Below the pieces are notes generated by a model. The model made no database searches. It worked only from the letters and a program-made list of their open reading frames with translations, and had not been told where the DNA came from. Of a stretch of 64,000 bases of DNA, positions 7,872-64,000 are shown one piece after another (within the stretch, counting starts at the first letter, position 1; each line of letters begins with the position of its first letter). The position numbers and the translations under genes are program-made. The stretch covers positions 1-64,000 of the forward strand of contig CANXME010000053.1 in the NCBI GenBank assembly GCA_948144175.1, in the 5' to 3' direction. Source of the stretch: Closterium sp. NIES-65 (lineage: Eukaryota > Streptophyta > Zygnematophyceae > Desmidiales > Closteriaceae).

Positions 7872-8735
7872 TGTTGGTGTAAGGGCCTAATAAACTCAAG
7901 CTATTAAGACTTTATCAAACTTAAAACCTCTCCTCGGGGTCACCTCCAAGGGTCCTTGGGTGCCTGGTGCAAGACCAGCCCCTATCCTCGGGTCCGAGTT
8001 TGTAGAGAGAGGGATCAAGAATGACTTAGTCAAAATAACAAGAGTACATTGAACGTCGCGCAGCGTATCGTGCAGACCGCCGACTGGATTAAGCTGAGAA
8101 TTTCCTATATCGAAGCTCACTTCAAGAGCTTTAAAATAAGCCAAGTTGCCTCGCGAGAAGTTCTGCCATTACGAAATTATGGATCGGACAGCGTTTGCCT
8201 AGCGTTGAAGTGCCAACGTACTAGCGTTGACTTGGGTAGCATTCCGCCGTCGCACCGCGTAGAAACGAAATTCCACGAAGGGAGGAATTCGCTTGAATCA
8301 AATTGACTATATTAAAGTACAAACAGAGAAGGAATAAATAGCTCTAGCTAGCAAGGACCTTGGGAATAAACCTGGGAACAACCAAGGATGATCCCAAATA
8401 ATTCCAAGCAACAGAACCAGCCTCGCTGGACAAAACAGCAGGTGCTAGGTTGGTAAACAACCTCTGGTTCTGTTTTTCCAACCTGGGAAAACAACAACTA
8501 GGTTGAAGTCCTAAAAACAGAACCTGATTTGTCTTTGCCCAACCAGCCAAATGCTGGTTCCACTGGTTTCCCCTGGCCCTGTAGCAAGCAGATACAGACA
8601 AACAACATCCAACCTTCATCTAAATTGTACCCCTATAGTGCCTACCCTGCTACACTATAGTCAACCAAACAAAACAGTACAATTTCGAGTTGGATAGAAC
8701 TGAATCTGTACAATCAATTCAACCGAACCGCAAAG
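7872..8735 (-). repeat. Copia-A LTR, partial, next to the A-II primer site
   Basis: Begins TGTTGGTGTAAGG beside the primer site (TGGTATCAGAGC on the minus strand, about 7857-7868) and follows the LTR consensus to about 8735, where it stops in the middle of the conserved AACCGCAAAG stretch. About 230 bp of the LTR 5' end are absent. It is more divergent from the family than most LTRs here. Confidence 0.85.
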
Positions 8736-8826
8736 TGTGGTTGGTTCTAACAGTAAATGTGTTACTTCCCGTGTAGTTGGTATTAATAGTTAATGTGCTA
8801 TTTATCTATGTGGATGGTACCAAGAG
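8736..8826. other. 91-bp A+T-rich spacer between two copia-A LTRs
   Basis: Sequence between the truncated LTR and the next full LTR that matches no other part of the window. It contains repeats of a GGTTGGT/AGTTGGT plus TAA...TAATGTG type. No coding potential is seen. It may be filler at a recombination junction or a relic of older flanking DNA. Confidence 0.5.
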
Positions 8827-9916
8827 TGTTGGTGTAAGGGCCTAATAAACTCAAGCTATTAAGACTTTATCAAACTTAAAACCTCTCCTCGGGGTCACCT
8901 CCAAGGGTCCTTGGGTGCCTGGTACAAGACCAGCCCCTATCCTCGGGTCCGAGTTTGTAGAGAGAGGGATCAAGAGGAACTTAGTCAAAACAGCAAGAGT
9001 ACCTTGAACGTCGCGCAGCGTATCGTGCAGACCGTAGATCGGATCAAGCTGAGAATTTACTCTATCGAAGCTCACTCTAAGAGCTTCAAAATAAGCCAAG
9101 TTGCCTCGCGAAAAGTTCTGCCATTACGAAGTTATGGCTCGGACAGCGTTAGCCTAGCGTTGGAGTGCTAGCGTACTAGCGTTGACTCGGGTAGCATTCC
9201 GCTGTCGCACCGCGTAGAAATGAAATTCCAGGAAGGGAGGAATTCGCTTGAATCAATTTCACTATATTCAGGTACAAACAGAGAAGGAATAAATAGCTCT
9301 AGCTAGCAAGGACCTTGGGAATCAACCTGGGAACAACCAGGGATGATCCCAAATAATTCCAAGCAACAGAACCAACCTGGCTGGACAAAATAGCAGGTGG
9401 TAGGTTGGTGAACAACCTCTGGTTCTGTTTTTCCAACCTGGGAAAACAACCAGGTTCAGGTCCTAAAAACAGAACCTGTTTTGTCTTTGCCCAACCAGCC
9501 AAATGCTGGTTCCGCTGGTTTCCCCTGGCCCTGTAGCATGCAGATACAGACAAACAACATCCAACCTTCACCTAAATTGTACCCCTATAGTGCCTGCCCT
9601 GCTACACTATAGTCAACCAAACAAAACAGTACAATTTCGAGTTGGATAGAACTGAATCTGCGCAATCAAGTAAGCCGAACCGCAAAGCTTCCATCTTGGG
9701 TTCCTTTGCGAGCTCGTCCTTTCTGCTTTTACTGTTCATAGCACGTACAATGTTATGCTGAAGCGCACAATGCGCGAGTACCTGCAAATGCTTCAAGCGA
9801 GAATTGCAAAAGCAAACAAACACACGAACATTCCATTCATACCCAAATGCATTCGCACATGCATACTCGTACAAACAGACGGCAGGATGTCGTGCAATGT
9901 GAATTTGCACCCAACA
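8827..9916 (-). repeat. Copia-A LTR, outer right LTR of the A-II insert
   Basis: Complete LTR of 1090 bp with both termini, TGTTGGTGTAAGG at 8827 and CACCCAACA at 9916. It is followed at once by the CTTAC copy of the target duplication and the interrupted A-I pol. Confidence 0.92.
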
Positions 9917-50735: not shown

Positions 50736-51368
50736 GTCAACACGCCAAGAGTCGATGTCCTGCTGCGCCGCAAAATTCACATATCTTGTATTTTGTCGGC
50801 CGCTGCGTTGCGTCAATCTTGTCGATATCCATCGGGTCGGCGGTCGTGGGTGGTGCCGATCGCTTCGTGTCGAATGATCTGTTCGGCATGTGGCGTCGTG
50901 TCTCGGGTTGATCTCGCGTCAGCGCATCGAATGTCTCTGCTGCACACACCATATCGTGGTGGCTGTTGTAGTTCGCGGCAATCATCTGTCGGCGAAATTC
51001 CATTTTTAACCCCTTGGTATACGCTTCAGTTTTTTCCCCTTTGGTCAGGTCGGTAATTTGGTTGGAGAGGGTCTCCATCTGCTGCGTAGATTGTGTTACA
51101 CTGCCAAACTGCTTATGCCGATGAATCTGCTGCCGCGCGCCATGTAGCTGGAATTGATCGGTTCAAAACGTTGAATTAAAGCTGCCCGAAACTTCGTCCA
51201 TGACCCTTGGCCTCGGACCTCGTTGCTATTATAAATCCACTCGAGCGCCGGGCCTTGCAATAGTATCCCTGCGAGCTGAATCCGCATTGCATCGTATGTC
51301 GGGGTCGTACAGCCAACGGCCTCAACGGTGATAATTTTTTGTACATAATTATCACCATTTTCTTCCAT
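50736..51368 (-). pseudogene. Gypsy-E gag
   Basis: Ty3/gypsy capsid and knuckle on the minus strand: LLQGPALEWIYNSNEV, RAALIQRFEPINSSYMAR, DLTKGEKTEAYTKGLK, EFRRQMIAANYNS and the CCHC knuckle CEFCGAAGHRLLAC near 50745. A frameshift near 51150 separates the two reading blocks. Start Met (51368) is the first in frame and fits the family, in which gag begins just before the capsid. The sequence is cut by A-VII at 50735, right after the knuckle, so protease and RT are gone. Confidence 0.82.
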
Positions 51369-51746
51369 TTGGCGATTTACAGAAAGATTTGCGACATAAA
51401 TAATTGAATTCTAGTCGCTGGTTGACTTACTGCGAATCGAATCGACTGTAGAAATGACGAGCGCTGTTTCTGTTGGTCGAGTGATTCTCAGCCGAAATTT
51501 GGGTCAAATCTCGGCCGTTGAGATGAAAGTCGATCCAGCGGTCGAAATTCCAACCTTTTTGGGCGAAATTCTTAGGGTCGTTGAGATTCGAATCGATCTG
51601 ACGATCGAAACTCCAACTTTTTTACCACTGGACCTGAGGATTGTTCGAAAACCGGTTCGAGGGGGACGTTAACAAATAGTGCCGAATTGGTTTATGTACC
51701 AGAAATCGGCGCTTTTCTTCGTAGCCCCCGCGGTTTTAAAAGATAG
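51369..51746 (-). other. Gypsy-E leader
   Basis: Non-coding stretch between the gag start and the candidate LTR. It has diffuse repeats of a GTCGAAATTCCAACTTTT type (51535-51625). No convincing primer site follows the LTR end. Confidence 0.45.
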
Positions 51747-51969
51747 TGTCAGAATCACTAAGGACAGCTAGGCTTAGGAGCCATAGCTTTAGTAGGGAAG
51801 AACTTAGGTTTTAGGGTTGAAGGAGGTGTCGAGAGAATTGTTGCAAGAAGAAGGGGCTTCACTAAGAAAGATGAGTACAAGATATAGCAAGAAGAAGCAT
51901 GGGGCACCACCAACAGCAAATTGGGATGTGCTACACTCTACACTACATACAATTATATATAATTCAACA
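51747..51969 (-). repeat. Candidate gypsy-E LTR
   Basis: Read on the minus strand it begins TGTTGAATTATATATAATTG and ends GATTCTGACA, giving TG...CA ends, a TATA-like start and 223 bp. The pairing with gypsy-E gag rests on position only; there is no second copy to confirm it. Confidence 0.35.
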
Positions 51970-52019
51970 GATAGGTTTTAGCGGCTCTACAATCTTCGCG
52001 TGCAAACAGGCTATGCGTC

Positions 52020-52086
52020 AGAGAATTGAAACTCAAACCGCCTGAGGACCTGTTGCACCATGTGTGACTAAGTCGGAGTGATGGTA
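52020..52086 (-). pseudogene. Copia-C-like RT scrap
   Basis: Minus-strand HMVQQVLRRFEFQF matches the RT C-terminal motif HMVQQVLQRFGF of the copia-C copy at about 34700. It is only about 65 bp, bounded by gypsy-E and gypsy-F sequence, so it is probably the insertion target of one of them. Confidence 0.65.
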
Positions 52087-52786
52087 TGTCACATTTGCAT
52101 GAATGTGAAGGGTAAGGTGGTGGAGCAAAAGGGCTATATATACTGTAAATATTGTATATAGCAGAACGGAGCCAAACGAGAATGGAAGCCCAGGAGTCAG
52201 TTGACTTTTCGCGAGTGAGAAGGGGAGGAGAGGAGCTGATGTTTGCCGAGCCTAGGGGTTGGAGGGTTGCATGGGTGAGAAGGGGAATGGAGCTGACGTA
52301 AGCAAGGTGGGGCGGGCTGGAGAAACAGAGGCAGACGAGATAGCGGCAGCGGGAAGCAGCAGCGCGGGTTGAGAGGGATGGGTGTATGTGTGCATGCTTG
52401 TTTGCTTTCTCTATGTGTGCAGGATTGGGTCGGGGAGCCAGCTGGATCTGGAAGTAAACAGCTGGAGGTCGAGCAGACAGGGCAAGGAAGGATGGCAAGA
52501 GGCATCACGGCTGCAGGCCTGTGTGAAGCAGTTTATAGCTGCTAGCGTAGGCAGGGATGATGGGATAGCAGTACGGTTGTGGCTTCGCAGGTAGAGTAGG
52601 AGGATTCCTGAATCCAATACCCATTGGTGATATATTTCCCTTGTTACACGAAAGTTTTGCTGCAGATGGAGCAAATGGTGAATAGAGGGAGATATGGCGA
52701 GCAAAGAACCGTAGTCTGTGGATAGGAGAGTGCAGTGTGTGACGGAGCAGTGAGCTCATCACATACAAGCAATCTTAGATGAAGGC
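52087..52786 (+). repeat. Candidate gypsy-F 5' LTR and leader
   Basis: Non-coding DNA between the copia-C scrap and the gypsy-F gag start. It begins TGTCACATTTGCATG and has a TATA-like CTATATATAC at 52134-52143. I cannot place the LTR end or a primer site, as the 3' LTR is beyond the window. Long minus-strand frames here are low in complexity and match nothing. Confidence 0.4.
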
Positions 52787-53959
52787 ATGCCCACGAGGTC
52801 GGGAATAGATTTCGCCGCGAAAGAGCCAATAGTAGTTAGTGAGAGGATGGAAGGCGATGGGAAGAATGAAGCCGAGGCTCACGGAGAAACCGCCGCGCAC
52901 GGCGCGGAAGGGGGTGTGTCCGGAAGGCCAGGGGGAGCCACGGGCTCTGACGCCGCATGCGAATCTACGTGTGGGACGGGTGAAACGGGTGAAGGAGGTG
53001 AGGCAGGGAAGCCCGTTTCGTAGAAGGGTGGCGTAACCGCTGGGGGGAGGACGGGTGGCGATCGACTATACCAGCGAAGCGCGTCATGGCAAGGGTTCGA
53101 GGAAGAGGCGGCTTCGTCATGTTGGCGATACACCATGCTACCGAAAGTGGAGGTGCCGGAACGGTTTTCCGGAGAGGTCCGGCGAGGGCCTTCGCTAAAG
53201 AACTACTTGACGCAGCTGGAGAACCTAAGAGCGCGGTGGGAGCGATATCATTTGGCGGCGGAGGAATTCTTTCGGAGATTGGCGAATACACTGACAGGGG
53301 AGGCGGAAACCAACTACCGAATCTGCCGCCGTGAACTGCTGGACTGGGCAGCACAGGGAAGACCAGGAGAAAGAGACCCGACGAAGCGATTCTTGGAGAT
53401 GCTGCGCGAGCAGTTCCCACTGCAGACGCTGGAGCAAGTCGTCGAGTTTTGAGACTTCAAGCGGAGGACTGGTGAATCATTGCTGGCGTACTACGGGCGT
53501 TTGATGGAGCTGGGGGAGGATATGAACTGCACGGCTCAAGGTCGGCTCGTCAGCAAATTCTTGAACGGGCTGAACTATGAGCTGCAGCGGGATGTGCAAG
53601 TGAAGATCTTCGAATTGGGGACAGCGGCGACGCTGAAGGTCGCGTACGAGACGGCAAGAAAGGTAGAGACGGGACGAAGGTTGTTTGAAGTGAAGCGCAC
53701 AACGGAAAGGTCTGCAGAAAGGAGACGGCCTGCATGGAGCGCCAGCCCTGTTGAGTACGAGCGGCCGCCGAGGGGACCAGCAGACGTGTGCAAATGCCAC
53801 AACTGCGGCAAGGGTGGACACCTGCGGCGGGACTGTCGCAATCCACCGGCATGCTCAGTCTGTGGCAAGGAGGATCATCTGAGGAGGGATTGCCCGGAGG
53901 CCCCTACGTGTGAGAGATGCGGGAGAAGAGGGCACGTAGAGCGAGACTGCTACGCGTGA
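52787..53959 (+). pseudogene. Gypsy-F gag with three CCHC knuckles
   Basis: Begins MPTRSGIDFAA, a start commonly seen in gypsy gag. An acidic N-terminus is followed by a capsid-like region (VPERFSGEV, LKNYLTQLE, DPTKRFLEMLREQFP, ESLLAYYGRLMEL, RLVSKFLNGLNYELQ) and three nucleocapsid knuckles at 53795-53953, each C-X2-C-X4-H-X4-C. In-frame stops: TAG at 53021, TGA at 53450, TGA at 53957. The last lies just after the third knuckle and could be original (gag/pol boundary) or a mutation, since the same frame continues into protease. Confidence 0.88.
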
Positions 53960-54871
53960 CGAGGAGAGCCAAAAGAAAAGGGGGAAGTGGCGGAAATGCG
54001 TGCTGAGATTGAGCGGCTGAGGGCCCAGCTGGAGGAGCGAGAAAAGGGGTCCGAGAGGAGGCCGGCCATGGTGGCAAGGCAGGAGGAAGAGGAAGAAGGA
54101 AGCGAGGAGGAGTTCTGCCTGATGGCGAGACCAGCTAGGGAAAGGGATGAGCTGGGATTGAGGCCTAGAGAGAGGTACCTCAGACAGAGGACAGGGGGAC
54201 AGCAGGAGTACGGGCCAAGACGCCGCGCAGGAGAGGACAGAGGGGGAGCAGCACTCCGTCGGCACCCGCTAGAAAGGCTCAGCTGCGCGGCGTCAGTACT
54301 CGTGGCGGAGAAGGGAAACATCACGGTAGGGGGGCTGCCGGTGAAGCAGGCCATCATTGACACAGGAGCTCATCTGGTGCTGATAGGAAGACGGCTGGCG
54401 GAGCAGTTGCAGCTGGACAGGCCAGAGAAGCAGATAGCAGAAGGACTGCTACTAATGACGGCGGAAGGGGGCGGTACGAAATGGATGCCGAAGACACGGG
54501 CAACGGTGGAGATCATGATCAGGCAGGGAAGCCCAGAGGAATGTGCTGTGAAGCTGCATTGCGGCATCTCACCATCAGAAGACTATAACCTGTTACTGGG
54601 AGTGGAGTTTCTCTACAGCATCGGCTCAACCATCTGCATGTGGGAAGAGCGGCTGATGTACCAAGTGACGTACTGGGAATATGACGGGTCCGTGGCGGAG
54701 CTGACTGTGCGCTTGATTCGACGAGAACCGAGGGAGGCATATCAAGCTGAGCTGGGGCACTTGAATTGGGACGCATTAGAGGAGGAGAGGAGATACCGGG
54801 ATTGGCATCGACAGCAGTGGGGAGAGAGTGGCAGCTTGCGGCAGCTTCACTTGGATAGCCGGGTATTTCAG
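53960..54871 (+). pseudogene. Gypsy-F aspartic protease region
   Basis: Same frame as gag. A coiled-coil-like charged stretch (EMRAEIERLRAQLEEREKG) precedes a retropepsin-like domain with the catalytic motif IIDTGAHLVLIGRRLAEQL at about 54353-54410 and a later LLLGVEFLYSIGS, matching the ILG-type strand of the family. No stop occurs in this stretch. The protease would cut the polyprotein and release the methyltransferase and RT. Downstream residues to 54871 (GHLNWDALEEE onward) have no recognised function. Confidence 0.85.
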
Positions 54872-55820
54872 AAGCCGATCGTGCTTCTGGAATTGTTTGG
54901 AGGGATCAGCACGGGACTAATAGCGGCGCTGAAGGCAGGTCTGCGAGTAGAGAAGTATATCTACGTGGACAATGATGACATCGCGAGCACGATATCCTGG
55001 CATTATATCAAGAGGCTGGAGGAGAGGAACCCCTCTCAGCTGTACGAAGGAGCGATAGAACGGGGAGCGGAGTGGATATGCCACCGAGTAGATCACGTCA
55101 AGGAAGAGGCGCTTGCGCGCTAGGAACACATAGACTTGGTGGTGGCAGGCTGGGAATGCTAGGGGATGTCCCGGGTGGGAGAGGGATGAGGAATGGCAGA
55201 TCCAAGGAGTGGGCTGTTTCGGGAACTGATCAGGATCCTAAAACTGATCAAGCGCAAACAAGGGGAGGTGGCGTACATAGTGGAGAACGTGGACACGAGG
55301 GATGACTAGAGAGAGGCGGTGAAGCAGGCAGAGGAAGAGATCCGAGGGGAGCTGGGGGTAGGGGTGGCCTGAGATGCAGCATCGGACACGCGGGTATTGC
55401 CAGAACGTGCTACCAGAAGCGATGCTACAGTACAAGTTGTCGCTGATGGAGCGACCAAGACCACGGTTTGTGGCAGATATATTGGAACCCACGCGGACCC
55501 CAGCGCCAGTGCAACACCCGGACCATGAGAGGCAGTATCCATGCAACGAAGTCGGGAAGCCACGACAAGCCTGGCCCACGCTGGTGGCTTACAAGAATGC
55601 GAAAGGGTTTAAGCTAAAGGACGGGGTGGAGGGACCCGGGATGGTGTTTGATCGGTTGAAGAGAGTGTGGGAAGAGCCGACGGCGTTAGAATAAGAGCTA
55701 GCCATGGGCTTCATGGCAGGCGCCACCGCAAGCCTAGAAGTGACAGAAGATCAGAGACGGAGGGCATTGGGGAAGGCCATGGACCTCAACGCCCTACACT
55801 GGCTGATAAGCACAATGGAC
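54872..55820 (+). pseudogene. C5-cytosine DNA methyltransferase domain of gypsy-F
   Basis: Motifs in standard, unpermuted order: I (LLELFGGISTGLIAALKAGL, from 54884; AdoMet loop), II (KYIYVDNDDIAS), IV (IDLVVAGWEC-stop-GMS, catalytic Cys codon 55157-55159, the stop at 55160 standing where Gln is usual), VI (VAYIVENVD, Glu at 55283), VIII (QHRTRGYCQNVLPEAM, from 55377), IX-like (AWPTLVAYKNAKG) and X (RRRALGKAMDLNALHWLIST). The pattern is closest to the DNMT3 type and differs from plant DRM, which is circularly permuted. Stops: 55121, 55160, 55187, 55307, 55692; a 1-base insertion near 55370 shifts frame. Motif IV has WEC where PC is usual. About 315 codons, so a full catalytic domain without separate targeting domains. 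Confidence 0.92.
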
Positions 55821-56913
55821 TGTTGGGTGCAAATTCACATTGCACGACATCCTGCCGTCTGTTTGTACGAGTATGCGTGTGCGAATGCATTTGCGTGTGA
55901 ATGGTATGTTTGTGTGTTTGTTTGCTTTCGCAATTTTCGCTTGAAGCATTTGCAGGTACTCGCAAAATGTGCGCTTCGGCATAACATTGTACGCGCTATG
56001 AACAGTACAAGCAGAAAGGACGAGCTCGCAAAGGAACCCAAGATGGAAGCTTTGCGGTTCAACTTACTTGATTGCGCAGATTCAGTTCTATCCAACTCGA
56101 AATTGTACTGTTTTGTTTGGTTGACTATAGTGTAGCAGGGCAGGCACTATAGGGGTACAATTTAGGTGAAGGTTGGATGTTGTTTGTCTGTATCTGCATG
56201 CTACAGGGCCAGGGGAAACCAGCGGAACCAGCATTTGGCTGGTTGGGCAAAGACAAAACAGGTTCTGTTTTTAGGACCTGAACCTGGTTGTTGTTTTCCC
56301 AGGTTGGAAAAACAGAACCAGAGGTTGTTCACCAACCTATCACCTGCTATTTTGTCCAGCCATGTTGGTTCTGTTGCTTGGAATTATTTGGGATCATCCC
56401 TGGTTGTTCCCAGGTTGATTCCCAAGGTCCTTGCTAGCTAGAGCTATTTATTCCTTCTCTGTTTGTACCTGAATATAGTGAAATTGATTCAAGCGAATTC
56501 CTTCCTTGCTGGAATTTCTTGTCTACGCGGTGCGACGGCGGAATGCTACCCGAGTCAACGCTAGTACGCTAGCACTCCAACGCTAGGCTAACGCTGTCCG
56601 AGCCATAACTTCGTAATGGCAGAACTTTTCGCGAGGCAACTTGGCTTATTTTAAAGCTCTTAGAGTGAGCTTCGATATAGGAAATTCTCAGCTTAATCCG
56701 ATCGACGGTCTGCACGATACGCTGCGCGACGTTCAAGGTACTCTTGCTGTTTTGACTAAGTCCCTCTTGATTCCTCTCTCTACAAACTCGGACCCGAGGA
56801 TAGGGGCTGGTCTTGTACCAGGCACCCAAGGACCCTTGGAGGTGACCCCGAGGAGAGGTTTTAAGTGTGATAAAGTCTTAATAGCTTGAGTTTATTAGGC
56901 CCTTACACCAACA
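55821..56913 (+). repeat. Copia-A LTR, 5' LTR of A-VIII
   Basis: 1093 bp, TGTTGGGTGC to TTACACCAACA. Contains clusters of short AACCTGG/CCAGGTT motifs (56200-56420) and of ACGCTAG motifs (56560-56590). Those motif clusters occur in all copies. Confidence 0.95.
56444..56452 (+). promoter_or_regulatory. Possible TATA box of A-VIII
   Basis: CTATTTATT; the same position reads ACTATATAA in the A-IV LTRs, so a TATA-type promoter with transcription start shortly downstream (about 30 bp) is plausible. No experimental support is visible. Confidence 0.35.
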
Positions 56914-56916
56914 AGC

Positions 56917-56928
56917 TGGTATCAGAGC
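56917..56928 (+). other. Primer-binding site of A-VIII
   Basis: TGGTATCAGAGC, complementary to the initiator-Met tRNA 3' end, three bases (AGC) after the LTR. Confidence 0.88.
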
Positions 56929-56959
56929 TGCGTTATAGTGATCCTCGATATAGGTAGCT

Positions 56960-59900
56960 ATGGCGGGCAACACCTCGGCGGTAGCTGGTGAATCTTCAGC
57001 CCAAGATCGTAGCGGCAGCCATGATTCTGGTGTTTCTGCGCCAAGGGGAGCGCGAACAAGCCAGGGCTCGCTGATCAAGGAGGTGCTGAAAAACTTCACC
57101 GTCGAGAAGTTCAATGGTGAGGGCTATGATGATTGGGCCTGGAAAATGCAACTTTATTTCCGTCAAATCGGATTGCTGAAACTAATGATTGGGGAGGAGC
57201 CTAGACCGAGTGACCCCGCCCTTCAGGAAGATTGGGACGAGCGCGCCTCGGCTGGCTACTACTTGATGTCGCAGAGTTTGGAGCTGAACCAGCGTCACCA
57301 CGTCATGCACCTGCTGCCGGAGGTTGAGTGCGGTCCGAAGGCGTGGACGGTGTTGAAGGAGCTGCACGCCCCGACCTCCGTTGTTGCAACATTGATGCTG
57401 GAGAGGGAGCTGTCCGCGTTGCGCCTGAGCGAGCGAGAGCCAGTGCAACCTGTCCTGGACAAATTGCGCGACCTCTACGCGAAGTTGGCGATCGCGGGAA
57501 TCACCTACCCAGAGCAGACCAAGTGCCTGAAGATGCTCTCGCTGCTGCCGGAATCGTGGCTTCAATTCACGAGCGGATTGAGCCTGCCGCAGAACCAGAG
57601 CTCGTGGACACTCGAGTGGGTGCGGACAAAGATTCTAGAGGAGGACTTCCGTCGCCGTCAACTGAGGGGTGGAGACGACGGCAGCAGCGGCTACGGGATG
57701 CAAGGGAGCCGACGTGGCAGAGGACGTGGCTTCGGTGGTGCTGGACGCGGTGCAAAGAAAGACGACGACTCCAACGACCAACAAGGAGGTACCGGTTGGG
57801 GTCGCGGTGCGAAATCTGGACGTGGGGGCAAGTCGGGTGCTGGTGGCAAAATGAAAGGGAGTTGCTGGTATTGTGAGAAGGAAGGGCACCCCTGGTTTTT
57901 GTGCTATAAGAAACCCGATGGATGGACCCCCCAGAATCGTCACCAGGATGGCGGCGCGCGGAGGAACCAGAAAAACGGCGCCAACATGGTCGCTGATTCG
58001 TCCGACAACAACCCGAAGGGCAACGGCGGTGCGGAGAAGAAGAAGGAGCGCACCGCGGGCCAATTCTTCCATATGGGAGACAAGGGGGAGCAAGGAGACG
58101 CATCTGCTAAGGCTGGAGCAGAGCTGCACCCCCTGGACTATTGGGTGTTGGACACAGGCGCTGCTTGGACAATGACGCCGCGCAAGGACCTGCTGGACGA
58201 CGTACGCGCTGCACCGATTAATGAGGTGTGCTCTGCCTCTGGACACATGTTGAAGGTGGCTGGTGCGGGACGAGCTGCATTTAAGGGAGCGGATGGCAAG
58301 CCGGTGGTACTGCACGACGTTCTCCTCGTCCCCGACCTGAAGGCCAACCTCATCTCCCTCCGTAAGCTTGGCAAGGCTGGGGTGAACACCAACACGGATG
58401 GGGCTCGCACTTATAAGGGGAAGCTGGGCAATCGGGTGCTTTGGGATCTGCACGAGAGCAAGGACGTGTACAGATCTATGTGGCAGCTGCCGGCGCTGGC
58501 GTGGCACGGTGGGGGGCAGGCTGGAGAGGGGTCTGCATCCCAGGGGGAGTGCAACGCCGTTGGAGGGGTTGGTGTGAAAGTGTCGGCCAGATCTGGGGAG
58601 ACAGATTGGGCAACTGCACACCGACGTTTGGGGCATGTGGCAATGCCTTTGCTGAAGCAGCTGGAGAAGGATGGAGCCGTTAAGGGCTTAAAGCTGAACG
58701 GACAACCACCCGATGATAACTGTGAAATTTGCCTCCTTTCAAAGTTCACCCGTTTCCCCTTCCATAGTGTGGCTGGCAGGAGCAAAAAGCCGTTGGAGCT
58801 GGTCCACATGGACTTGGTGGGGCCGCTGCCGGTGCAAGGGCACAAGGGGGAGCGGTACTTCCTAACCATAGTGGATGACTGGAGCAGGCTAATGTGGGCG
58901 TATCCGCTGAAGCAGAAAGATCACGCCGCCTCCACGATTCGGGACGATTGGCTGCCGTTCGTGGAGAAGCAAGCGGAGTGTGTGGTGAAGCGGATTAGGA
59001 CAGATCGGGGTGGTGAGTTCCTTGGAGCTGAGATGACGGCCTGGCTCAAGAAGCAGGGCATCCAGAGGGAGCTGACCACGGCTTACACCCCACAGTCCAA
59101 CGGTGTAGCAGAACGGGCGAACCGGACAATTCTGGAGACAGCTAGGGCGCTGCTCATAGAATCTGGGCTGGGCAACTTGATGTGGCCCCATGCTGTTCGG
59201 CACGCTACCGTCGCTAGGAACAGGGTACTCACAAAGGTTGCGGATGACTCGTGGGTGCCGTTGGAGAGGTGGCTTGGGAGGAAGCCGCCGGTGGACATGC
59301 TGAGGGTGTTCGGTTGCATGGCAGTCGCCCACGTTCCCAAGACCTACCGCAGTAAGTTGGGGGCGAGTGCAATCTGGTGTGTACATTTGGGGCTGGCTGC
59401 TGAAAGCAAGGGATGGCTGCTGTGGGAGCCTTCCAAGGGTGTGTTGTTTGACAGCAGGGATGTGAAGTTTGTTGAGGGCATGATGTATGGGAGCTGGGAG
59501 AAACAGCCGGAGGCCAGGGTGTCCCAGCAGATGAAGCAGATTACCATGCAGCTGGACCTGACTCCTAGTGTGTGGGAGGAGGGAGAGGAGGCAGCTGCAG
59601 AGGGTGGTGATAAAGAGAAGGTGCAGGAGGCACCTGCTGGTGGAGGTGATGGTGTGGAGATTAGCGGTAGCACTAGTGGAGCTGCTGGATCCGAGGGAGG
59701 AGAGCAGCAGCAGGGGAAAACTAAGAAGCCGAAGGGTGTCGTTATGAAGGGATGGGAGACACCCGTCTCCAGGCCAGGACGTACCCGTATGGCTACTAAG
59801 AAGCTGACTGCAGGAGCTGATGTAGCGGAGCAGCAGCTTGGGACCGAGGAGGCATTGCTGATTCTACCGCATGGCTATGACCCGGATGAGGAGGATCAAC

Positions 59901-61540
59901 CTGCGTACTGTTTTCTTGCCCCTGCACCAGAGGAACCAGCTAGCATGGAGGAGGCATTAGCTGGACCAGATAGGGACAAATGGCTAGCTTCCAGGGATGC
60001 TGAGTACCAGAGCCTGCTGGAGAATGGGACTTGGGAACTAGTGGTGCTGCCTGAGGGAAAGAAAGCGGTACAATGCAAGTGGGTGCTAAGGATCAAGACT
60101 GACGACAAGGGGCAGGTCACCATCTACAAGAGTAGGTTGGTGGCTAAGGGGTTTATGCAGAAGGAGAAGCGGGACTTCAATGAGATCTTTGCTCCCACTG
60201 CCAAACCCCCTACCCTTCGTGTCTTGTTGGCAGATGCAGCCGTTGGTGGGAAGTTCATTATCCAGATGGATATATCAACGGCATTCCTCAATGGGATTTT
60301 AGAGGAGGAGGTGTTCATGACGCAGCCACCTGGGTATGAGGATGGTACGGGCAGGGTGTGCAAGCTGAAAAAGTCCATCTACGGCTTGAAGCAGGCGCCA
60401 CGCTGCTGGTACCAGAAGTTGGCAGCTGTTTTAGAGGAGATGGGATTCAGGACCAGCAGCTGTGATGAGAGCCTCTTTCTCAAGGGGGAGGGGGAGAAGC
60501 TGGTGCTGTTTCTGGTCTATGTGGACGACATTCTTCTCTTTAGCAGCAGCATGAAGGAGATCCAGAAGGTGCAGCAGCAGCTGATGGAGAACTTCAAGTG
60601 CAAGAACCTTGGGGAGATAAAGTACTACCTCGGGATGCACGTAGAGAGGGATCCAGATCACAGGTGGTTGAAACTGCACCAGGAGAAGTTCATCAAGGAG
60701 CTTGGGGAGAAGTACGGAATTGAGAATGAGCGCAAGGTTGCAACTCCCCTGCCAGCAGAATTCAAGCTTGTGAAAGCTGCAGAGGATGAAGGGGTTGAAG
60801 CCGAGGAGCAGCAGCAATTTCAGTCCTTGGTGGGCAGCCTCTTGTATGCAGCAGTTCACACGAGACCCGACATCTCTTTCTCGGTTGGGCAGCTGGCTAG
60901 GGTAGTGCAGAATCCATCAGAGGAGCAGGTGGATGCAGCTGAGCGTGTGGTGAAGTACCTGAACTCTCACCCAAGCATTGGAGTTCAATACTCCGCATCT
61001 GCGCAGGTGAAGCAGAAAGGGGTTGAGGTGCTGAAAGAGAAGGGGGAGAGGCTTGGAGAAGGCAAGCTCTTTCTCACTTGCTTTACCGATGCTACGTGGG
61101 CCTCTGAAAAAGAAGATTCCTCATCTGTGGGAGGATACATCTGCGTAGTAGGGGGAGGACCTGTTAGTTGGAGGTCCAAGAAGCAGACGGAGACAGCACT
61201 CTCTTCCGTAGAATCAGAGTACATGGCGATGTTCCATGGGGTGAAGGAGGTGATTTGGCTGAGGAGGCTATTAGAGGAGATTGGCCAGGAGCAAAAGATT
61301 GCTACGCCGCTGTTTTGTGATAGCAAGGGAGCTCTTGGGATGGCCAGGAACGCTGTGCTTCATGGGCTGAATAAGCACATGCGTATCAAGTGGCACTGGC
61401 TGCGTAAGGAGGTGAAGAGGGGGACGGTGAATCCGATCTACATCAAGACTCACCAGCAGCCAGCAGACTTCCTCACCAAGAGGCTTGCGGATGAGCCTCA
61501 TTGGCGTTGTGTGCGCATGAGTGGAATGAGCATGAACTAG
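56960..61540 (+). CDS. Copia-A gag-pol polyprotein, intact
   Basis: 1526 codons from MAGNTSAVAGESS to GMSMN. Gag residues 1-300 with a Gly/Arg-rich stretch (about 245-295); CCHC knuckle C302, C305, H310, C315; protease D398 in LDTGAAWTM; integrase zinc site H554, H559, C588, C591 and catalytic D618, D682, E718 (D,D-35-E); an acidic Gln/Gly-rich spacer (about 880-980); RT with YGLKQAPRCWY and YVDD at 1187-1190; RNase H from D1377 (FTDATWAS) through CDSKGALG to the THQQPADFLTKRL tail. The order gag-PR-IN-RT-RH defines Ty1/copia. The start is the first ATG after the primer site and is conserved in all copies. Gag and pol share one frame with no shift signal, so their ratio must be set another way. 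Confidence 0.95.
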   Translation: MAGNTSAVAGESSAQDRSGSHDSGVSAPRGARTSQGSLIKEVLKNFTVEKFNGEGYDDWAWKMQLYFRQIGLLKLMIGEEPRPSDPALQEDWDERASAGYYLMSQSLELNQRHHVMHLLPEVECGPKAWTVLKELHAPTSVVATLMLERELSALRLSEREPVQPVLDKLRDLYAKLAIAGITYPEQTKCLKMLSLLPESWLQFTSGLSLPQNQSSWTLEWVRTKILEEDFRRRQLRGGDDGSSGYGMQGSRRGRGRGFGGAGRGAKKDDDSNDQQGGTGWGRGAKSGRGGKSGAGGKMKGSCWYCEKEGHPWFLCYKKPDGWTPQNRHQDGGARRNQKNGANMVADSSDNNPKGNGGAEKKKERTAGQFFHMGDKGEQGDASAKAGAELHPLDYWVLDTGAAWTMTPRKDLLDDVRAAPINEVCSASGHMLKVAGAGRAAFKGADGKPVVLHDVLLVPDLKANLISLRKLGKAGVNTNTDGARTYKGKLGNRVLWDLHESKDVYRSMWQLPALAWHGGGQAGEGSASQGECNAVGGVGVKVSARSGETDWATAHRRLGHVAMPLLKQLEKDGAVKGLKLNGQPPDDNCEICLLSKFTRFPFHSVAGRSKKPLELVHMDLVGPLPVQGHKGERYFLTIVDDWSRLMWAYPLKQKDHAASTIRDDWLPFVEKQAECVVKRIRTDRGGEFLGAEMTAWLKKQGIQRELTTAYTPQSNGVAERANRTILETARALLIESGLGNLMWPHAVRHATVARNRVLTKVADDSWVPLERWLGRKPPVDMLRVFGCMAVAHVPKTYRSKLGASAIWCVHLGLAAESKGWLLWEPSKGVLFDSRDVKFVEGMMYGSWEKQPEARVSQQMKQITMQLDLTPSVWEEGEEAAAEGGDKEKVQEAPAGGGDGVEISGSTSGAAGSEGGEQQQGKTKKPKGVVMKGWETPVSRPGRTRMATKKLTAGADVAEQQLGTEEALLILPHGYDPDEEDQPAYCFLAPAPEEPASMEEALAGPDRDKWLASRDAEYQSLLENGTWELVVLPEGKKAVQCKWVLRIKTDDKGQVTIYKSRLVAKGFMQKEKRDFNEIFAPTAKPPTLRVLLADAAVGGKFIIQMDISTAFLNGILEEEVFMTQPPGYEDGTGRVCKLKKSIYGLKQAPRCWYQKLAAVLEEMGFRTSSCDESLFLKGEGEKLVLFLVYVDDILLFSSSMKEIQKVQQQLMENFKCKNLGEIKYYLGMHVERDPDHRWLKLHQEKFIKELGEKYGIENERKVATPLPAEFKLVKAAEDEGVEAEEQQQFQSLVGSLLYAAVHTRPDISFSVGQLARVVQNPSEEQVDAAERVVKYLNSHPSIGVQYSASAQVKQKGVEVLKEKGERLGEGKLFLTCFTDATWASEKEDSSSVGGYICVVGGGPVSWRSKKQTETALSSVESEYMAMFHGVKEVIWLRRLLEEIGQEQKIATPLFCDSKGALGMARNAVLHGLNKHMRIKWHWLRKEVKRGTVNPIYIKTHQQPADFLTKRLADEPHWRCVRMSGMSMN

Positions 61541-61571
61541 TATGGAATGATGGGGATGCAGCCGGCAGGCT

Positions 61572-61580
61572 GAGGGGGAG
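61572..61580 (+). other. Polypurine tract of A-VIII
   Basis: GAGGGGGAG two bases before the 3' LTR, the plus-strand primer site, conserved in A-I, A-II, A-IV and A-VI. Confidence 0.8.
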
Positions 61581-61582
61581 TG

Positions 61583-62675
61583 TGTTGGGTGCAAATTCAC
61601 ATTGCACGACATCCTGCCGTCTGTTTGTACGAGTATGCGTGTGCGAATGCATTTGCGTGTGAATGGTATGTTTGTGTGTTTGTTTGCTTTCGCAATTTTC
61701 GCTTGAAGCATTTGCAGGTACTCGCAAAATGTGCGCTTCGGCATAACATTGTACGCGCTATGAACAGTACAAGCAGAAAGGACGAGCTCGCAAAGGAACC
61801 CAAGATGGAAGCTTTGCGGTTCAACTTACTTGATTGCGCAGATTCAGTTCTATCCAACTCGAAATTGTACTGTTTTGTTTGGTTGACTATAGTGTAGCAG
61901 GGCAGGCACTATAGGGGTACAATTTAGGTGAAGGTTGGATGTTGTTTGTCTGTATCTGCATGCTACAGGGCCAGGGGAAACCAGCGGAACCAGCATTTGG
62001 CTGGTTGGGCAAAGACAAAACAGGTTCTGTTTTTAGGACCTGAACCTGGTTGTTGTTTTCCCAGGTTGGAAAAACAGAACCAGAGGTTGTTCACCAACCT
62101 ATCACCTGCTATTTTGTCCAGCCATGTTGGTTCTGTTGCTTGGAATTATTTGGGATCATCCCTGGTTGTTCCCAGGTTGATTCCCAAGGTCCTTGCTAGC
62201 TAGAGCTATTTATTCCTTCTCTGTTTGTACCTGAATATAGTGAAATTGATTCAAGCGAATTCCTTCCTTGCTGGAATTTCTTGTCTACGCGGTGCGACGG
62301 CGGAATGCTACCCGAGTCAACGCTAGTACGCTAGCACTCCAACGCTAGGCTAACGCTGTCCGAGCCATAACTTCGTAATGGCAGAACTTTTCGCGAGGCA
62401 ACTTGGCTTATTTTAAAGCTCTTAGAGTGAGCTTCGATATAGGAAATTCTCAGCTTAATCCGATCGACGGTCTGCACGATACGCTGCGCGACGTTCAAGG
62501 TACTCTTGCTGTTTTGACTAAGTCCCTCTTGATTCCTCTCTCTACAAACTCGGACCCGAGGATAGGGGCTGGTCTTGTACCAGGCACCCAAGGACCCTTG
62601 GAGGTGACCCCGAGGAGAGGTTTTAAGTGTGATAAAGTCTTAATAGCTTGAGTTTATTAGGCCCTTACACCAACA
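61583..62675 (+). repeat. Copia-A LTR, 3' LTR of A-VIII
   Basis: 1093 bp, same as the 5' LTR as far as I can read, including private variants shared only by these two (for example CAAAATGTGCGC and GCCATGTTGG). Confidence 0.95.
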
Positions 62676-63229
62676 TGGACAAGCATCTAGAGCGCAATAG
62701 ATGGGAGCGCAGGAGAGGTCATGCGGCACGGGCAGAGCCGAAGACAGAGGACGATGAGACCAAGGAGAGAGAGGCGGAGAGATTCTTGGAACTCCTGGAG
62801 GAGGAGGCGTGGGAGATGAGAAGGAAGGGAGTGCCACAGGAGAAGCGGATGGCAAGGCTGAACGGTCCCTGGGATACCAGGGAGTTATCCGGACCAGGAA
62901 GAGGAAGAGGAAGAATGGTGGGAAGGAGAGCCAGAGATGGACTGGGATTCAGAGGAGGAGGAGGACCCAACTGAGAGATGGATCCCGGACCCAGACGAGG
63001 TCTTCCTAGGACCTAGCAGGGCCTACATGGCAAGGGAAGCAGCGGAAGAAAAAGGGGGACGGGGGCAGGAAGCGGAAGAAGAAGTAAAGGAAGCAGGTGC
63101 GAGGGAGATGGCGGAACCAGCAGCAGCTAGGGAGACAGAAGAAGGCACGGGGAGGATAGAGGAGACGGCACCACCTCCAGCAGCTAAAACACACTGGGAT
63201 ATAGGAGGCGCCATCCAAGGGCAGGCTGC
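62676..63229 (+). pseudogene. Gypsy-F end of methyltransferase and acidic linker
   Basis: Resumes the frame of 55820 with MDKHLERNRWERRRG. A charged region rich in Glu and Arg follows; near 62905 the frame shifts, after which it reads a run of Glu, WWEGEPEMDWDSEEEEDP and a long acidic, Ala-rich stretch (EEKGGRGQEAEEEVKEAG). No domain is recognised. It appears to be a flexible linker between methyltransferase and RT. Repeats of GGAAGAG make this stretch prone to slippage. Confidence 0.75.
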
Positions 63230-64000
63230 AATAAGGCTGGAAGCCGTGCTGCGGCAGCATGCAGCAGCGTTCGCCCACACGATACAGCAGCTAGGCAAGT
63301 GCGTAACTAGCACCATGCATCTACCCCTGACCAGTGAAATCCCAGTGTACCAGCGGTGAAGAAGAATGAGCCCACAGGACATCAGCATCTGCACGGAAAA
63401 AATGTCCAGAGCTGCTAGCAGCAGGCTTGATCAGACGGTCGACATCGGACTATGCGGCAGTCACGGTGGTAGCAGCACTGACAGACCTGACAGGCACCGT
63501 CTTGTCCCGCCGCATGTGTGGAGACTACCGAGGGTTAAACAATGTGACAGCAGCAGACTGATACCCGATGCCGATGGCGGAAGAAATATTCGACCTGCTG
63601 CAGGGAAGCTGGGTCTTCTCGACGCTGGACCTGCGACAGGGCTTTAATCAGATTCCAATAGCTGAGGAGGACAAAAAGTAGACAGCTTTTCACGGACCAG
63701 ACGGAATCTATGAGTGGAACTTTATGCCTTTTGGACTAAGGAACGCGTCAGCGGTGTTCCAGCGGGTAATGGACGCGGTACTAAGAGAGGTAAAGGTGGC
63801 AGCGTGTTACATAGACGATGTTATCATCTTCAGCTCGGATGCAGGGACGTGGAGGCGACGCTGTCGGCAATCGAAGCGGCAGGCCTGACCTGTCACCCCG
63901 GGAAGTACCGCTTTGGGCACAGCAGCGTAGCGTACCTGGGTTTTGAGGTATCGGGGGGAGAGCTCAGCATCCAGAAAGCCAAAACAGAAGTGTTGGACCG
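63230..64000 (+). pseudogene. Gypsy-F reverse transcriptase, cut by window end
   Basis: Ty3-type RT in several frame blocks: LRQHAAAFAHT, TSEIPVYQR, then (after a frameshift near 63405) RRMCGDYRGLNNVTAAD, YPMPMAEEIFDLLQ, WVFSTLDLRQGFNQIPIAEE, TAFHGPDGIYEWNFMPFGLR, the catalytic YIDD at 63808-63819, and HPGKYRFGHSSVAYLGFEV. Stops at 63357 (TGA), 63559 (TGA) and 63679 (TAG), and a further frameshift near 63845. The window ends in the thumb domain. The RT sequence, not the methyltransferase, places the element in Ty3/gypsy. Confidence 0.9.

Follow-up and report, generated by a model that had tools for sequence, protein, structure and literature searches.

Introduction

Retroelements that carry their own cytosine-C5 methyltransferase (MTase) are rare. 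In KnitGypsy-Dnmt3 of Klebsormidium nitens, a Dnmt3 lies within the Pol frame of a gypsy element described as intronless, multicopy and under purifying selection, with DIRS-like repeats according to the legend of Fig. 4; its assay in yeast gave no activity and is described as inconclusive (de Mendoza et al. 2018, PMC5890265). The same paper reports two retroelement-borne C5-MTases from Symbiodinium, SymbioDIRS-Dnmt3 and SymbioLINE-Dnmt, while its main text names no Closterium, Marchantia, liverworts or Calypogeia and uses the abbreviation TSD once, for SymbioLINE (PMC5890265). A 2025 survey cites MTase-bearing retroelements (PMC12344493), and an opinion paper proposes antiviral roles for them and states that land plants such as tracheophytes do not have them (PMC6338049). 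Here we analyze an MTase-bearing gypsy element in the window, that is, the first 64,000 nucleotides of a contig of Closterium sp. NIES-65 (C53). A preliminary description of this DNA had pointed to algal and dinoflagellate precedents, rightly as the above examples demonstrate. We read the window element as a dead copy of a large gypsy family in which a DNMT3-fold MTase is placed between protease (PR) and reverse transcriptase (RT) and would act on the nucleic acid of the element itself, and which would replicate by means of split terminal repeats. To this reading as a whole we assign a probability of about 0.58.

Results and Discussion

The Window Element and Its Intact Relatives

The window element is colinear (52787-55817 and 62675-66002 of C53) with P0055, one open frame of 2154 aa at another locus of the genome (L019, contig C343), whose domains follow the order gag-CCHC-PR-MTase-RT-RNaseH-integrase. 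Among the ten Pfam matches of P0055 at E <= 0.01 are zf-CCHC, DNA_methylase (2e-7), RVT_1 (1.1e-30), RT_RNaseH (1e-35), Integrase_H2C2 (3.2e-14) and rve (2.1e-12), and none is a phage-integrase domain; the Pol order PR-RT-RNaseH-INT with an rve integrase and an H2C2 zinc finger is that of Ty3/gypsy. By tblastn, six pieces of the window element, spread over 52787-66002, align with P0055: residues 11-886 correspond to 52787-55381 in a single frame (72% identity, 8 stops), residues 893-1038 to 55380-55817 (75% identity), and four more pieces follow between 62675 and 66002, beyond a nested copia element. The parts are:

52087..52746 (end approximate), plus strand: 5' terminal repeat A1, starting TGTCACATTT
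52787..53956, plus strand: gag with three CCHC zinc knuckles (53792-53956) and stops inside (tblastn to P0055; Pfam zf-CCHC)
54320..54613, plus strand: aspartic protease, active site DTGA (Pfam Asp_protease_2 6e-6, gag-asp_proteas 6.3e-6)
54839..55817, plus strand: remnant of a DNMT3-like C5-methyltransferase (three-frame reading; tblastn to P0055 up to residue 1038)
55816..55820, no strand: target-site duplication TGGAC, left of the copia (direct comparison)
55821..62675, plus strand: nested copia, long terminal repeats (LTRs) at 55821-56913 and 61583-62675
62676..62680, no strand: target-site duplication TGGAC, right of the copia (direct comparison)
62676..63399, plus strand: element resumes with MTase end and linker to RT (blastn to L019; tblastn to P0055)
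63400..64000, plus strand: reverse transcriptase plus preceding stretch, in two frames (tblastn to P0055 1280-1427 and 1433-2154)

RNase H and integrase lie past the window edge, up to 66002 of C53, and the last few MTase residues are found on the far side of the copia. Repeat A1 was recognized because the A repeat of L019, together with its edge, matches it weakly at three colinear places (68-76%); its start was set at TGTC, the terminus of other copies.

The preliminary description had proposed gag, three CCHC knuckles and a DTG protease, followed by a cytosine MTase inside the gypsy polyprotein. The former are corroborated by Pfam (zf-CCHC at 9.9e-13 in three stretches, and the protease matches above), the latter by the colinearity with P0055. 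Its claim of ordered MTase motifs, I to VI in one frame, stands as far as order and frame are concerned: direct reading places motif I at 54881-54916, motif IV at 55151-55162 and motif VI at 55274-55291 in the same frame. However, this frame holds stops, one of them at the Gln position of motif IV, which reads W-E-C-stop, and motifs VIII (HRTRGYC, 55380-55400) and X (~55764-55800) are VIII- and X-like and lie in another frame. Likewise, a Ty3-type RT in the same direction is borne out by the match to P0055, but the 3' half is split off by the copia, and the three RT-side pieces yield no Pfam family match at E <= 0.1. Moreover, none of the eight tested open reading frame pieces of the window matches DNA_methylase, a result that the preliminary description had regarded as speaking against its proposal. 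Because P0055 itself matches both DNA_methylase and RVT_1, we ascribe the missing matches to the shattered state of the copy; the MTase and RT calls within the window consequently rest on the match to P0055.

Taken by themselves, the missing DNA_methylase matches would also fit a chance join of a host DNMT fragment with a gypsy. We reject this explanation, whose probability is practically nil: other copies do contain the MTase, as 26 other places in the genome span at least 2,460 of the 2,771 bases of the gag-PR-MTase stretch, single open frames run through all domains, and the one host CMT-like exon that was read (L040) has a canonical PPCQ.

Compared with P0055, the window copy has accumulated 15 stops and four frame changes, the copia break not counted. 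Its 5' repeat finds no match at 65901-67200, where 3' repeats were sought. An A-like repeat does recur at ~69560-70228 of C53, within a block that also repeats the left flank of the element (51331-52761 versus 68805-70228, 92.8% identity), for which reason we read it as a block duplicate and not as the element's own 3' repeat. The window copy is dead: besides having stops and frame changes, it lacks 3' repeats and is interrupted by a copia of 6.9 kb.

Copy Number in the Genome

All genome-wide match counts given here are lower bounds. In the 874-Mb genome, the PF00145 profile gave 123 scored places among 901 candidates, including at least one host gene (L040); P0003, an MTase-plus-linker protein of Closterium (Naga37s-1), gave 97 scored matches among 1995 candidates (best identity 85%); and the gag-PR-MTase stretch of the window gave 40 scored places of 496 candidates, itself counted, with a best identity elsewhere of 84%. 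At several loci, a single frame (up to 2321 codons) encodes gag, CCHC-knuckle, DTG-protease, MTase, RT and integrase motifs. Between eight loci, the A repeats share 97.7-100% identity, which points to recent insertion, and the junction count given below indicates that the family probably comprises hundreds of copies. On contig C995 (L023), three MTase matches stand in tandem at 460522, 467586 and 474650, 7,064 bp apart, and the stretch read in L023 holds a 99.9% repeat with which two of them overlap.

As side observations, a similar tandem pair of MTase matches, 7,088 bp apart, is present on C382, and the host exon L040 (C2390:13450-14950), which also retains a canonical ENV, is partly duplicated within its locus.

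Fold and Active Site of the Methyltransferase

Among PDB entries, the element MTase is best matched by DNMT3 (DNMT3A at 4.5e-16; DNMT3 at 3.9e-18 in another comparison), and we thus predict a DNMT3-like fold. It shares only ~23% identity with DNMT3A/3B and differs from them by its location inside a polyprotein, by Glu-Cys instead of Pro-Cys and by a preceding Trp. Phage MTase models also match the fold, their best E-value of 1.2e-14 being weaker than that of DNMT3 in the PDB (3.9e-18), and so do PHROG families (phrog_116 best, 1.9e-22, a value not comparable across libraries with the 4.5e-16 of DNMT3A). These matches are compatible with a viral ancestor of the MTase; when the MTase alignment was scanned against viral_contigs, 62 pattern matches came up, none of them confirmed as a relative.

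The element MTase is non-canonical in that the proline adjoining the catalytic cysteine of motif IV is replaced by glutamate. This holds for 40 of 42 element places in the same genome and, one Asp included, for 74 of 104 aligned MTase domains. In these 74 domains the remaining catalytic residues are kept: the catalytic Cys and the ENV Glu in 74/74, the Gln in 73/74, and the two RxR arginines in 70/70 and 69/70. On well-supported branches of a quick tree, Glu and Pro alternate at least four times. Purifying selection is seen in one informative pair.

How should this substitution be understood? In published descriptions, the proline of motif IV is invariant and takes part in base recognition, and OsDRM3, which has the Cys without the Pro, is predicted to be inactive (PMC2965745). 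On these grounds, the Glu-type MTase might be catalytically dead and have, like DNMT3L or DRM3, a binding or scaffolding function by which host methylation is recruited or complementary DNA (cDNA) or integrase is tethered to chromatin; a PHD-type pattern, resembling a chromatin reader, downstream in 26 of the 37 proteins with RT before MTase (Pfam PF00628 is listed for many) would suit such a role. Yet DRM3 has lost several catalytic residues (PMC2965745), whereas the Glu-type domains have kept theirs, and the repeated alternation looks as if both residues served a working enzyme. We therefore consider a dead domain rather unlikely, albeit the most serious competitor. In our view, Glu in place of the usual Pro before the catalytic Cys points to an active site that is changed yet still functional and that may serve a different substrate or base context instead of performing the ordinary CpG chemistry of DNMT3.

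Split Terminal Repeats and Integration

At locus L017, repeat A is 560 bp long (988-1547 and 8185-8744) and repeat B 255 bp (7929-8183 and 8745-8999, 100% identical); the order is A-coding-B-A-B. The same order is found at L010, L011, L012, L015, L019, L021, L022 and L027, so that none of the nine complete loci has the plain LTR-internal-LTR layout of Ty3/gypsy; an MTase-less gypsy of the same genome (L051), taken as a control, has plain 610-bp LTRs and no B. L014 has the B pair and L013 misses B2, and no such repeat pair occurs within the stretches fetched for L016, L018, L020, L024, L026 and L028. The outer ends of the element read TGTC... and ...CGACA, and all nine complete loci are flanked by exact 4-bp target duplications (TGAA, TCTC, ATAC, CTGG, GAGG, GTAG, ACTC, TGCC and ACCG; for L021, the one of three candidate starts fitting the family terminus was chosen). 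Internally, B1 meets A2 in the palindrome CGACA-GC-TGTC, that is, both ends joined by GC. This junction is exact in 11 of the 20 stretches L009-L028, and the fused-end pattern CCGACAGCTGTCA occurs 410 times in the genome, versus 19 times for the pattern read backwards.

DIRS-type elements combine a split-repeat layout with a tyrosine recombinase and are not known to leave a target-site duplication. Neither the recombinase nor the absence of duplications is found here: the 4-bp duplications agree with the rve (DDE-type) integrase. The three C995 places, 7,064 bp apart, might prompt the idea that A-B-A-B is a leftover of recombination between tandem elements and not a replication form. However, recombination between A repeats would itself also yield tandem arrays, and at 9/9 complete loci, which belong to several subfamilies, the outer ends are flanked by exact and differing 4-bp duplications, so that the whole A-B-A-B unit must have been inserted. 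Such an origin is accordingly very improbable.

CpG Ratios and Proposed Mechanism

The preliminary description had put forward a self-silencing or rival-silencing role of the MTase as a hypothesis and had taken the copia nesting as a hint of it. The copia inserted right at the end of the MTase domain with a 5-bp duplication; it has an open frame of 1528 aa (56954-61540) and two LTRs of 1093 bp that are 100% identical. Identical LTRs mark a young insertion, and the nested copia is no evidence on silencing.

A silencing device that marks genomic copies at CpG would find a precedent in the SymbioDIRS-Dnmt3 domains, which are reported to methylate CpG de novo in yeast (PMC5890265). In the frames of 13 MTase elements, CpG observed/expected is 0.72-0.84, which is below one MTase-less gypsy (1.16) but above the other (0.66), two copia stretches of the window (0.52 and 0.62) and the whole window (0.68); there is thus no consistent depletion. 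Although the CpG ratio is a weak test of methylation, these values weigh against strong, lasting CpG self-methylation, while action on cDNA or in other contexts would stay compatible with them. The near-identical A repeats, a sign of recent activity, also speak against silencing, and the role proposed earlier is in our view improbable.

For the reading that we prefer, action on the element's own nucleic acid, we propose the following course. The MTase would be packaged with the other Pol domains and act in or near the particle on nascent cDNA or on the RNA:DNA hybrid of the element; selection would keep this step because the survival or integration of the cDNA gains from it, and genomic copies would not be marked at CpG strongly enough for clear depletion. 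The transcript would lack the extreme ends of the element, and the B1-GC-A2 junction, as a copy of the joined termini, could restore them in reverse transcription. The resulting linear DNA with TGTC...GACA ends would then be inserted by the DDE integrase with a 4-bp target duplication.

Relatives and Domain Layouts

The closest named proteins to the MTase region of L019 are from the zygnematophyte Closterium, with P0056 (Closterium sp. NIES-53) at 92% identity over 87% among the best candidates scored. Further protein relatives belong to Closterium spp., to two liverworts (Calypogeia fissa and Marchantia polymorpha), to Mesostigma viride, Haematococcus lacustris, EukProt entries and many metagenome proteins; no K. 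nitens protein is among the matches listed in the protein searches with the element MTase, in two of which the best 8000 and the best 7997 candidates were scored.

In 48 proteins, both an RT and an MTase motif IV were recognized by pattern: the MTase precedes the RT in 11 and follows it in 37, where it lies between RNase H and integrase in those read. The Glu-type occurs in both layouts; the eight Pro-type proteins among the 48 all have the RT first, and in 23 further Pro-type proteins, among them the four distant ones, no RT was seen. An RT tree of 32 chosen rows (14 with MTase before RT, 16 of the 37 with RT before MTase, and the two MTase-less sister gypsies of the genome that were examined, L051 and the partly masked L050) unites the elements with MTase after RT in one clade (100/99) and nearly so those with MTase before RT, P0063 falling outside. 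All MTase elements are set apart from the two MTase-less ones (100/100), which, with two outsiders, does not prove a single MTase capture.

Two observations on individual relatives may be added. The RT-before-MTase gypsy proteins with a downstream PHD-type finger pattern (P0065, P0067, P0070 and 23 others) are mostly metagenomic. P0066 (1333 aa), from the annotated Marchantia gene Mp_6g11220, consists of a gag-PR-MTase-RT fragment without the motif IV core and would represent either a decayed or a co-opted element.

Neighboring Sequence

The stretch 50738-52761, including the 5' flank and the 5' repeat, is duplicated at about 67954-70309 of C53 (93-94%). The duplicate runs straight into sequence like 66001-66081 without an element body, and may reflect an internal deletion or else be an empty-like form. 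On both sides of the element, minus-strand pieces at 50737-51410, 66100-66840 and 71766-72476 of C53 were read as another, MTase-less gypsy (gag, RT). Finally, an array of an 8-bp tandem unit extends from 43761 to ~44160 of the window, with 33 overlapping copies listed.

Comparison with Known Systems

By domain and repeat order, the window element belongs to the KnitGypsy-Dnmt3 kind. Compared by description, the two share gypsy domains, a Dnmt3-related MTase inside the Pol frame, multiple intronless copies, purifying selection and a DIRS-like repeat order, the last being seen in the intact relatives but not in the window copy, whose 3' end is missing. They differ in the host, here Closterium-like with probably hundreds of copies, and the Closterium element has a motif IV Glu-Cys, 4-bp target duplications and a fused-end junction, KnitGypsy-Dnmt3 being known here by its description and not by its sequence. 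SymbioDIRS shares the A-coding-B-A-B repeats (PMC5890265), whereas the Symbiodinium elements live in other hosts and employ a tyrosine recombinase or LINE machinery and no DDE integrase. The same order is characteristic of DIRS, PAT and Ngaro, in which the joined ends are likewise copied internally and whose tyrosine recombinase is not known to leave a target duplication, in contrast to the rve integrase and the exact 4-bp duplications observed here.

Judging by their spread over Closterium, Mesostigma, Haematococcus and liverworts, gypsies with an MTase would be an old feature of green plants and no novelty of Klebsormidium; the liverworts are an addition that goes against the published statement on land plants (PMC6338049). 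Should the Glu-Cys enzymes prove active, the role that textbooks give to the proline of motif IV would have to be revised, and naturally occurring Glu/Pro pairs allow a comparison. The repeat layout offers a test case for DIRS-like template logic combined with a retroviral-type integrase. One may go further and see a gypsy clade spanning the green lineage, with Glu/Pro toggling in active DNMT3-fold enzymes of altered chemistry or substrate and with DIRS-type split repeats plus a DDE integrase as a third mode of replication, placed between those of LTR and DIRS elements; this wider picture is tentative, and we would sooner bet against it than for it. For such elements, neither Glu-Cys nor 4-bp duplications nor an occurrence in Closterium turned up in the mainly open-access literature that we searched, supplements aside. 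While a gypsy with a Dnmt3 MTase in Pol is thus already known, what is new is the Glu-Cys active site, the split repeats together with a DDE integrase and 4-bp duplications, and the placement of the MTase either before or after the RT.

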